This document shows positions 43,260 to 58,238 of a stretch of 64,000 nt of DNA, piece by piece. The stretch is from Corynebacterium epidermidicanis (lineage in GTDB: Bacteria > Actinomycetota > Actinomycetes > Mycobacteriales > Mycobacteriaceae), in assembly GCF_001021025.1 (NCBI RefSeq), contig NZ_CP011541.1, forward strand, positions 1,302,001 to 1,366,000. The letters are read 5' to 3'. Made by a program: the position numbers and the translations under genes. Every line of letters begins with the position of its first letter. Position 1 is the first letter of the stretch. The notes under the pieces were generated by a model. The model worked only from the letters and a program-made list of their open reading frames with translations, did not search any database and was not told the origin of the DNA.

Positions 43260-43315
43260 GTGGAAATAATCTACCCTAAAATCACAACGACGAAACTAGG
43301 TTTTGAGCTGCAGAT

Positions 43316-43345
43316 TTGTGGAAACTGAACAATTCAGGCTATTGT
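43316..43345 (+). promoter_or_regulatory. Predicted sigma-70-like promoter for tRNA-Leu
   Basis: TTGTGG (43316-43321) and TATTGT (43340-43345) are separated by 18 bases and lie 36 bases upstream of the tRNA. These fit corynebacterial -35 and -10 boxes loosely. The region also separates the divergent ABC exporter gene. Confidence 0.5.
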
Positions 43346-43380
43346 ATTCCAAGTACCGAGCACGAGCTCGGAAACACCCA

Positions 43381-43466
43381 GCCCGGGTGGCGGAATGGCA
43401 GACGCGCTAGCTTGAGGTGCTAGTGTCCTACTAATGGACGTGGGGGTTCAAGTCCCCCCTCGGGCA
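43381..43466 (+). tRNA. tRNA-Leu (anticodon GAG)
   Basis: The 86-base sequence folds as a class II tRNA: acceptor GCCCGGG with CTCGGGC (one G-U), D-arm, anticodon stem CTAGC/GCTAG with loop TTGAGGT, long variable arm GTCC…GGAC, and T-arm GGGGGTTCAAGTCCCCC. The GAG anticodon reads CUC/CUU Leu codons. The discriminator is A and CCA is not encoded. No integrase or attachment duplication is seen beside it, although a repeat element lies 122 bp downstream. Confidence 0.97.
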
Positions 43467-43476
43467 CAATGTGAAG

Positions 43477-43516
43477 TCTCGAGCCGCTGACTTAGATCAG
43501 TGGCTCGAGGCTTTTG
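43477..43516 (+). terminator. Probable terminator after tRNA-Leu
   Basis: TCTCGAGCCGCTGA pairs with TCAGTGGCTCGAGG across a short loop, and the downstream side is followed by CTTTTG. It starts 11 bases after the mature tRNA end, the expected place for tRNA termination. Confidence 0.75.
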
Positions 43517-43587
43517 TCATTGCTTACCACCACCGCGGATTGCCTTTCAGATGGTTCATTATCGCTAGCGCAGCCCCTTACAATCGA

Positions 43588-43850
43588 GGGTTAAGTAAAG
43601 AAAAGTGCGTCTCATCGGCGTGTCGCCGGCCGTGCGGGTTTGCTGCACAAGTGCTATGTCGTCGCTTCGGCGTAGTCCGACTACGTAGAACAGCGTTTTT
43701 TTAATGAATTAAATCCCACAGCGGTAGTCCGACTACACCGAAGGGACGACATCGAGCGAGCTACGGCCCCAACGAACAATAACAACCGAGTTTAGGGCCA
43801 CTGCGCCGCGGAAATCACGCATCAGAGACACACTTCTCTTTACTTAACCC
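43588..43850. mobile_element. Repeat element copy A: 263-bp MITE-like element with terminal inverted repeats
   Basis: The ends are inverted repeats about 24 bases long: GGGTTAAGTAAAGAAAAGTG at the left and, in reverse complement, GGGTTAAGTAAAGAGAAGTG at the right. Immediately outside, ACAATCGA (43580-43587) and ACAACCGA (43851-43858) match at 7 of 8 positions, like a target duplication. Inside is a second inverted repeat of ~27 bp, each arm containing GTAGTCCGACTAC. No ORF of protein-like composition lies within. A related copy in opposite orientation is at 57990-58238. A non-autonomous transposable element (MITE) is the best reading; the parent transposon is not known. Confidence 0.75.
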
Positions 43851-43904
43851 ACAACCGATGCGGCCTAATTCGTTTTCTTCTCACAACATGGTTGACTACT
43901 ACCT

Positions 43905-45362
43905 ATGACGCTCGATCCACAAGATTTAGCCACCTGCCTGCGGGTCCTCGATGAAGCTGGCACACTCGATCCCCAATCTGCTGACTCGGTGACGCTACAG
44001 CGCGCCGTCGCCAAGCTGTTTAAGGAAGTGAAGCGACAGCGGCGACAGTCTGCGAAGCAAGCTCGTCGCGCAGCGGATGAGGCTGTGCTTTCGGCTACGG
44101 CCACTGCTAATCCGGCCCGCATCGACGACGAGACGGCCGGGATCCTGGTGCGTCCGGCCGGTGCGGCCCCGGTGTCTTTAGAGAAAGGTGCAGTTGCTAC
44201 TCCACATGGATGGGCGGGCAAACTATACCGTGCGCAAAATTGCTATGTGTGCAAGCGGCCGTACACGCTAGTCGATTCCTTTCACCACCAGCTCTGTCCC
44301 GAGTGCGCTGCGGACAACCGGGTGCGTCGCAATGCTCGCGTAGATCTCACCGGACGGCGTGCGGTGTTGACCGGCGGACGGGCCAAGATCGGCATGTATA
44401 TCGCCTTGAAGCTGCTTCGCGACGGCGCTGATCTTACCATCACCACGCGCTTCCCACGTGATGCTGCGCGTAGGTTTGCTGCTGTGGGCGATAGTGCGGA
44501 TTGGTTGTCGCGGCTCCACATAGTGGGAATCGATCTCCGCGACCCAGCGGCGGTGGCAACGTTTGCTGACGAGGTAGCAGCCGCCGGCCCGCTAGACATT
44601 CTGATCAATAATGCTGCCCAGACTGTGAGGCGCTCCCCTGGGTCTTACTCCGGGCTCATCGATGGCGAGCAGGCCCCGCTGACGGGGGTGGAGAATAAGG
44701 TCGATCTACGCGCGATCGGTGCGACCTCGGATCTTCATCCGGCAGCGCTCGTGTCGGGTTCTTCCCCGTCGGCGGCCGATGCCCTGGTTAGCCAGGCGAT
44801 GCTTGGCGGCTCAGCCTCGCTCGCACGTATCGCAGACGGCACCGCCGTTGACGCCGGGGGCCTCATCCCTGACTTGGTTTCGCATAACTCATGGGTCGCC
44901 ACAGTTGGGGAGGTTGACCCTGTGGAGCTGTTGGAGGTGCAATTATGCAATCAAACTGCGCCATTCATTCTGGTGAACCGACTTCGGCCGGCTTTGGAAG
45001 CTGCACCTGCCCGACGCAAGTATGTTGTCAACGTCTCCGCCATGGAAGGAGTCTTTGGTCGCGGCTACAAAGGGCCGGGGCACCCACACACAAACATGTC
45101 GAAGGCGGCGCTGAATATGCTCACTCGGACTGCAGCCGGTGAGCTTTTTGAACACGGAATATTGATGACCGCCGTGGACACGGGATGGATCACCGATGAG
45201 CGCCCGCACACGGCAAAGGCACGGCTTGCTGAAGAGGGCTTCCACGCGCCGCTTGACCTCGTTGATGGCGCGGCCAGGGTCTACGATCCGATCGTGCAGG
45301 GTGAGAACGGTGTTGACCTGTACGGATGTTTCCTGAAGGATTACCGCCCACACGCCTGGTGA
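43905..45362 (+). CDS. SDR-family protein with N-terminal zinc-ribbon
   Basis: The 485-residue protein has an N-terminal ~110-residue helical region rich in Lys/Arg/Ala, a CxxC…CxxC zinc ribbon (Cys113, Cys116, Cys131, Cys134), and then an SDR Rossmann domain with RRAVLTGGRAKIGMYIALKLL as the cofactor loop and LINNAAQTVRR. Downstream is VNVSAMEGVFGRG…HTNMSKAALNMLTRT: the position four before the Lys holds Thr instead of the catalytic Tyr, although a Tyr lies earlier in the segment. A long loop of ~100 residues is inserted between NNAA and the Ser motif. The dehydrogenase activity is therefore doubtful; a zinc-dependent binding or reductase role is open. Starts 54 bp after the repeat element; divergent neighbour none. 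Confidence 0.8.
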   Translation: MTLDPQDLATCLRVLDEAGTLDPQSADSVTLQRAVAKLFKEVKRQRRQSAKQARRAADEAVLSATATANPARIDDETAGILVRPAGAAPVSLEKGAVATPHGWAGKLYRAQNCYVCKRPYTLVDSFHHQLCPECAADNRVRRNARVDLTGRRAVLTGGRAKIGMYIALKLLRDGADLTITTRFPRDAARRFAAVGDSADWLSRLHIVGIDLRDPAAVATFADEVAAAGPLDILINNAAQTVRRSPGSYSGLIDGEQAPLTGVENKVDLRAIGATSDLHPAALVSGSSPSAADALVSQAMLGGSASLARIADGTAVDAGGLIPDLVSHNSWVATVGEVDPVELLEVQLCNQTAPFILVNRLRPALEAAPARRKYVVNVSAMEGVFGRGYKGPGHPHTNMSKAALNMLTRTAAGELFEHGILMTAVDTGWITDERPHTAKARLAEEGFHAPLDLVDGAARVYDPIVQGENGVDLYGCFLKDYRPHAW

Positions 45363-57989: not shown

Positions 57990-58238
57990 GGGTTACGTAA
58001 AGAAGAGTGTGTCTCTCATTCGTGATGTCCGCACGGTAGTGGTCCTAAGGATTTCTGAGAGCTATAGACCGGAGGTGGTCGTCCCTTCGGAGTAGTCGGA
58101 CTAACGCCGTGGGATTTTATTCATCGAAAAATGCTGCTCTACGTCGTCAGACTACGCCGAAACGACGACATAGCACATCTGCATCGGGGCCGCACGCCGG
58201 CGGCACGCCGACCGGTGGCGCTTTCCTTCACCTAACCC
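57990..58238. mobile_element. Repeat element copy B: ~249-bp MITE-like element, older-looking copy
   Basis: Read in the plus direction it aligns with the reverse complement of copy A along most of its length. The left end GGGTTACGTAAAG is followed by TGTGTCTCT…GTGATGTCCGC, then CGTCCCTTCGGAGTAGTCGG, CGTGGGATTTTATTCAT, CTCTACGTCGTCAGACTACG and CGACGACATAGCAC, as in copy A. The right end CACCTAACCC is a weaker inverted repeat. No flanking duplication is seen. It has more differences than expected between two fresh copies, so it is probably the older insertion or a recombined one. Confidence 0.72.

Follow-up and report, generated by a model that had tools for sequence, protein, structure and literature searches.

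IS1249, an insertion sequence of Corynebacterium that belongs to the IS256 superfamily, flanks the erm(X) transposon Tn5432, according to the available part of the respective article (PMC8304765). When IS1249 was used for mutagenesis in C. glutamicum, auxotrophs were obtained at a rate of 0.2%, compared to 1.3–2.5% in other studies; the sections of the report that were accessible attribute this low number to the insertion specificity of the element and give its target preference as a triple A or T (PMC1590026). Such a low rate is expected if IS1249 mostly misses genes. In the open-access literature, the matches listed, as far as their text was available, contained no report of the MITE analysed below and none that places IS1249 at tRNA genes or terminators. 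The genome of Corynebacterium epidermidicanis (2,692,072 bp, one contig; from here: G000 or host genome) was assembled from short reads with gaps closed in silico, and its announcement does not mention repeats (PMC4543519).

Here we analysed a stretch of 64,000 nt from this genome (the window), for which a prediction made from the sequence alone had proposed a non-autonomous transposable element downstream of a tRNA-Leu gene. A MITE of IS1249 is in itself another member of an already known kind of element. We report a statistical preference of IS1249 and this MITE for intrinsic terminators, in many cases 45–100 bp behind a tRNA gene, where it is the IRR end that faces the terminator. Judged by the matches listed for the open-access literature and the parts of them that were available, this oriented preference for terminators and tRNA genes in the IS1249 group, which was assessed relative to a control family, appears to be new.

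The focal element of 263 bp opens with GGGTTAAGTAAAG at position 43588 and closes with the complement at 43850. Counted on the sequence, its ends agree at 24 of the outer 26 bp, and over 35 nt the inverted arms show 83% complementarity. Hence, the predicted MITE-like shape with inverted ends was confirmed, as was the flanking 8-bp duplication, which is matched at 7 of 8 positions (ACAATCGA and ACAACCGA at the borders). The second inverted repeat expected inside the element consists of the 13-mer GTAGTCCGACTAC at 43672–43684 and 43724–43736. No protein-coding frame had been seen in the interior; in fact, there are only two wholly internal ORFs of at least 30 aa, with 32 and 34 aa, while one 77-aa frame enters from outside. 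The upstream tRNA gene is tRNA-Leu(GAG), in agreement with the prediction. Being short, free of a transposase gene, bordered by terminal inverted repeats and a duplication of fixed length, and present in multiple copies, the element is a MITE. The features are listed in the table.

Features of the focal MITE, its surroundings in the window, and the stand-alone repeats of the host genome (window positions unless marked G000)
Feature	Position	Strand	Remarks
IS1249-type MITE, focal copy	43588..43850	+	263 bp; IRR-like end on the left
Left terminal inverted repeat	43588..43613	+	resembles the IS1249 end behind the transposase gene (IRR) in other species
Right terminal inverted repeat	43825..43850	-	
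Target-site duplication, left copy ACAATCGA	43580..43587	n/a	
Target-site duplication, right copy ACAACCGA	43851..43858	n/a	7/8 compared to the left copy
Palindromic core (~consensus 66–168)	43653..43755	+	twin 13-bp palindromes; little variation among copies; also a stand-alone repeat
tRNA-Leu (GAG)	43381..43467	+	120–121 bp upstream of the focal element
Intrinsic terminator behind tRNA-Leu	43476..43515	+	hairpin followed by TTTT; limits set visually; 78 nt from the hairpin end to the focal element
Second, diverged MITE copy in the window	57990..58238	-	terminator hairpin 22 nt away, on the left-end side
Stand-alone repeats (L211–L225)	G000 1545–1659, 104973–105630 (three), 329633, 357588, 497299, 507117, 637976, 692029, 940130, 1661582		

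A search of the region 43300–44000 against Rfam returned only the tRNA at gathering score and no family at this score within the element. A known Rfam RNA family was rejected as an identity of the element; a weak match to a miRNA family over the hairpin lies far below the gathering score. Plasmid and phage collections gave no match to the element. The second MITE copy in the window has no tRNA gene within 300 bp. Moreover, short intergenic motifs resembling AAACTTGACCACACCGTAGCG and GATTGCCTTTCA-ATGGTTCA seem to recur, as judged by eye, at window positions 43535–43563 and in the flanks of several copies.

The genome-wide search for further copies, which had been proposed as a check, yielded at least 53 near-full copies plus 9 fragments in the host genome. 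Copies were counted as near-full when at least 225 bp could be aligned; a few are truncated or strongly diverged. The number 53 is a lower bound, composed of 46 near-full copies that were recovered together with the 9 fragments by a profile search of fetched stretches, and of 7 more from further sites. In a DNA search of the host genome, the best 40 of 91 candidates were scored; each of these 40 extends over the greater part of the element, with at least 84% identity. A pattern of the end with up to 3 mismatches matched the whole genome 81 times, compared to 0 times for a reversed control pattern, so the end sequence is not a chance occurrence. The median divergence from the consensus is 6.1% (46 copies), which indicates that the family is not brand new. 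Among 242 genomes of the genus, with 3 candidates scored per genome, the interior of the MITE was detected in the host genome and in none of the 241 besides it. MITEs were also looked for in other species: at 6 loci, a second end was sought within 900 bp and none was found.

At the exact ends, 16 of the 53 copies are flanked by a perfect 8-bp duplication, 6 by 7/8 and 5 by 6/8, whereas 26 fall below 6/8; if a shift of the ends by 2 bp is tolerated, at least 7/8 is reached by 26 of the 53. Reciprocal recombination between copies was considered as the cause of the missing duplications and rejected, since no matching pair was found among the 26 copies below 6/8 (650 ordered pairs). The copy at 1491036 is nested in another copy, with the borders CAGTTGGC and CGGTTGGC forming a 7/8 duplication. 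In the related genome G032, the tRNA-Leu(GAG) gene is likewise followed by a terminator and then by the beginning of the dehydrogenase gene that stands at this place in the host. The stretch that leads up to the putative start codon measures ~80 bp in G032 and is free of the element, compared to 437 bp in the host.

The many copies without a clear duplication at their exact ends could suggest that the sequence is not mobile at all, for instance an ancestral intergenic repeat or an RNA gene. This reading is already contradicted by the duplications and the copy number, and the perfect duplications at 16 sites, the nested insertion, the element-free interval in G032, the negative search for the interior in the 241 genomes besides the host (3 candidates scored per genome) and the lack of an Rfam family at gathering score leave it with hardly any probability. 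Copy number, matching ends, 8-bp duplications and the nested insertion thus support the interpretation as a non-autonomous transposable element. Two observations concern individual copies. Those at G000 208708 and 1442451 have ~30 bp of right flank in common (29/30), a hint that recombination or conversion extended past the element borders. The copies at G000 25300, 176750, 216538, 223640, 276807 and 2375309 possess a different right end (CTTTCG...TACTTAACCC or TACCTAACCC) and possibly constitute a subfamily.

The original prediction had left the parent transposase open and suggested looking for an insertion sequence with such ends. The first ~42 bp of the MITE have matching loci in 27 of 200 other genomes. 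At 16 of 19 such loci examined, there was an IS1249-like transposase, and at 7 both ends were present, 1379–1407 bp apart. Over ~39–54 bp in most cases, the left end of the MITE matches IS1249 elements at their IRR end. At the right end of the MITE, the outer part matches the shared terminal repeat. Among 92 IS1249 elements with defined ends, 90 have a length of 1379–1412 bp; the ends mostly read GGGTTAA...AAAGTG, and GGGTTAA occurs at both ends in 78 of the 92. The transposase belongs to the NCBIfam family IS1249 (NF033544; 434.6 bits, cut-off 300), with weaker matches to IS256/Mutator families. The parent identified by these ends is IS1249, with a transposase of the IS256 type, from which the MITE appears to be derived. 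Based on the ends, the length of the duplication and the common placement described below, the MITE was probably mobilised in trans by the IS1249 transposase.

An intact transposase that could make the host genome home to a self-sufficient IS1249/MITE pair was not found there; the only trace of an IS1249 transposase gene detected is a frame-broken remnant at 739378–740005. Therefore, the MITE family seems to have outlived its parent in this genome. The right end of the remnant (740188) directly abuts a MITE copy that lacks its last ~22 bp (L187, G000 738800–741000). A similar junction exists at 1749736.

The placement of the MITE copies is far from random. The host genome has 52 tRNA genes, and 17 of the 53 copies are located within 300 bp downstream of one of them, 16 within 130 bp; for the latter distance, random placement gave a mean of 0.10 and a maximum of 2 in 2000 trials. 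In 15 of the 17 tRNA-linked copies, it is the IRR-like left end that points towards the tRNA. Counted by transcription units, 17 of 40 tRNA units have a MITE within 300 bp. Two copies are also located upstream of another tRNA (151 and 296 bp), each of them downstream of a nearer tRNA.

Inspection of the flanks showed many copies directly behind, or within, an intrinsic terminator. With a home-made detector, the limits of which were chosen after viewing the flanks and which included a distance limit of 60 nt, terminators were found at 37 of the 53 copies, reading into the left end in 32 cases and into the right end in 6, compared to 9.2% of random intergenic positions in the window; 16 copies have no terminator according to this detector. 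An earlier scan with other settings yielded 30 left and 8 right, or either in 36 of 53, compared to 11.7% for random window positions. The focal copy fits this picture loosely: its hairpin is 78 nt away, which is more than in most copies and beyond the 60-nt limit.

For comparison, we analysed IS1249 itself in other genomes. NF033544 was matched in 163 of the 242 genomes at E ≤ 0.001, in 95 above the cut-off. We examined 133 loci, of which 30 and 100 were among the matches listed in the family search and 3 came from the search for matching ends; this set is non-random, as it was drawn from the best matches listed. Loci were kept if ends and a duplication of at least 7/8 could be recognized, which applied to 92 (89 with 8/8); 41 did not qualify, 39 because clear ends were lacking and 2 because the duplication reached just 6/8. 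The 92 elements originate from 34 genomes and have 90 distinct duplications; L300 and L302 have a common flank, leaving ~91 independent sites. As a control, 90 IS256 loci were examined (30 listed by the search and 60 from genomes that also gave IS1249), and ends were found in 60.

Of the 92 IS1249 elements, 41 (24 genomes) are located within 150 bp downstream of a tRNA gene that lies on their IRR side, and 3 downstream of one on their IRL side; at 3 elements, a tRNA on the IRL side reads away from the element. In contrast, none of the 60 IS256 elements, partly from the same genomes, lay within 150 bp of a tRNA, and 2 of 60 were at terminators. The difference was also seen across all loci: the distance between the transposase gene and a tRNA was at most 400 bp at 57 of 133 loci for IS1249 and at 1 of 90 for IS256. 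An excess of positions downstream of tRNA genes over the respective control hence characterizes both the MITE (16/53 against 0.10) and IS1249 (41/92 against 0/60).

Terminators were detected on either side of 54 of the 92 IS1249 elements, on the IRR side of 48 and on the IRL side of 9, compared to 0.4% and 1.4% in dinucleotide shuffles of the flanks; at 38 elements the detector reported none. They occurred on the IRR side of 29 of the 41 tRNA-linked sites. Among the 51 sites not beside a tRNA, IRR-side terminators were detected at 19 and IRL-side terminators at 7, and 27 sites had a terminator on neither side. The commonest distance from the hairpin on the IRR side was 21–37 nt (29 of 49). A few copies are located between tRNA and terminator or inside the hairpin (e.g. 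L035, L261, L353; by eye). With 41 of 92 sites, tRNA ends appear over-represented even among terminators, which would suit a cue linked to transcription. A palindromic target consensus in the duplications was rejected, as the palindromy per site did not exceed that of shuffles.

Such a distribution might arise by survivorship, if IS1249 inserted with little restriction at A/T triplets and was retained only where it does no harm, e.g. behind tRNA terminators. The published preference, in the accessible text, comprises only the triple A or T (PMC1590026), and several IS1249 flanks look coding by eye, so that some copies seem to reside within coding sequence; both would suit free insertion. IS256 copies, partly from the same genomes, are not near tRNA genes (0/60) and rarely at terminators (2/60), and survivorship offers no ready reason for an orientation specific to one end (41 to 3 for IS1249, 15/17 for the MITE). 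We therefore consider survivorship an unlikely explanation. The expression of the transposase is an unlikely cause of the orientation as well, because the bias also exists in the MITE, which lacks a transposase gene. Since the terminator-linked, oriented placement is common to the insertion sequence and to the gene-less MITE, targeting by the transposase is the best explanation.

The interior of the MITE has its own peculiarities. Consensus positions 61–160, i.e. 100 of 263 columns, contain only 17 of 115 singleton substitutions (42 copies; binomial p 6.7e-8), with the limitation that these limits were chosen after seeing the table and that the 4 most diverged copies were left out. The mirror positions of 61–100 (164–203) vary freely. 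In addition, the palindrome was found without IS1249 ends in 12 stand-alone copies of ~110–140 bp, all of which have two GTAGTCNGACTAC-like sites separated by a loop of 38–39 nt of variable sequence. Thus, the MITE appears to combine IS1249 ends with a repeat that is also present on its own. Neither this separate palindrome nor the placement preference had been part of the prediction. The fixed spacing of ~five helical turns suggests a putative paired protein site. One stand-alone copy is located close to the start of the G000 numbering.

From the few singletons in the core and the constant loop of the 12 stand-alone copies, one could propose a domesticated structured repeat, the core hairpin of which has a role for the host, e.g. 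in RNA 3'-end formation, with the copies at tRNA ends being kept by selection. The stand-alone copies themselves do not follow this expectation, as 0 of 12 are within 300 bp of a tRNA, and IS1249 is placed alike in other genomes. The MITE interior was detected in none of the 241 genomes besides the host (3 candidates scored per genome). Covariation was sought in the core arms, and double-change pairs did not exceed those in shuffles; the core as a covarying RNA was therefore rejected and no selection on base pairing is claimed. The middle of a repeat might also be homogenized by gene conversion or by the assembly of short reads, but positions 164–203 vary freely; constraint, gene conversion or assembly effects are all possible causes of the low core variation. 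Altogether, domestication as the reason for the placement appears quite improbable.

We favor, with a probability of roughly 85%, that the MITE was moved by an IS1249-type transposase that selects terminator sites at the time of insertion, where both the movement in trans and the choice of sites are inferred. The transposase would act in trans on the MITE ends and would pick its sites via the DNA of the terminator, i.e. the T-tract or the hairpin, or via a halted RNA polymerase. The peak of insertions at 21–37 nt past the hairpin is about where the front edge of a terminating polymerase would be expected, and may therefore suit a halted polymerase as the cue. Because insertion at terminators would spare the genes of the host, a high copy number could be reached. 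Extending this idea, the IS1249-group transposases could be a bacterial counterpart of the tRNA-targeting transposons of eukaryotes, recognizing their target through the polymerase that terminates at tRNA genes (or the DNA structure of the terminator) and inserting at the front edge of this polymerase with one particular end directed inward, which their MITEs would use to fill the 3' flanks of tRNA genes harmlessly. We put this forward tentatively, as a possibility about which doubts prevail.

If transposase targeting is correct, it provides a sharper reason for the few auxotrophs obtained with IS1249 (0.2%; PMC1590026, accessible text). IS1249 would then be a bacterial DNA transposon whose safe-haven targeting is directly testable. 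Its target rule bears on where elements of the Tn5432/erm(X) type settle (the transposon as described in the available part of PMC8304765), and the placement could guide the search for gene-sparing insertion tools.

Compared to described systems, the MITE resembles IS1249 as known from Tn5432 in its ends, mostly GGGTTAA...AAAGTG, and in the 8-bp duplication. While the target of IS1249 in print, as far as the paper was available, is a triple A or T (PMC1590026), the sites favored here are terminators, very often those of tRNA genes. The MITE differs from IS1249, the transposase of which belongs to family NF033544, by the lack of a transposase and by its foreign palindrome.

Bacterial repeats of the kind represented by BrickBuilt and BOX/RUP/SPRITE also include ERIC. 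Like the MITE, BrickBuilt and BOX/RUP/SPRITE are small and non-coding, have many intergenic copies and form secondary structure, according to the available portion of the source (PMC10969869). Here, in contrast, the parent is known by its ends, and the oriented preference for tRNA terminators was established relative to a control family and extends to the parent, as seen in many genomes.

Group IIC introns are retroelements that possess a ribozyme and a reverse transcriptase. They have in common with IS1249 and the MITE that a Rho-independent terminator stem-loop (or attC) is located just upstream of the insertion site, as stated in the accessible part of the respective article (PMC7923331); unlike these introns, IS1249 and the MITE are DNA transposons. 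For TRE5-A of Dictyostelium, the neighborhood of tRNA genes likewise serves as a safe haven, into which the element inserts at a fixed distance of ~47 bp upstream, following the text available for this element (PMC5391098). Whereas TRE5-A is a eukaryotic retrotransposon relying on the Pol III machinery, IS1249 and its MITE are bacterial, reside downstream of the tRNA gene and depend on a DNA transposase.
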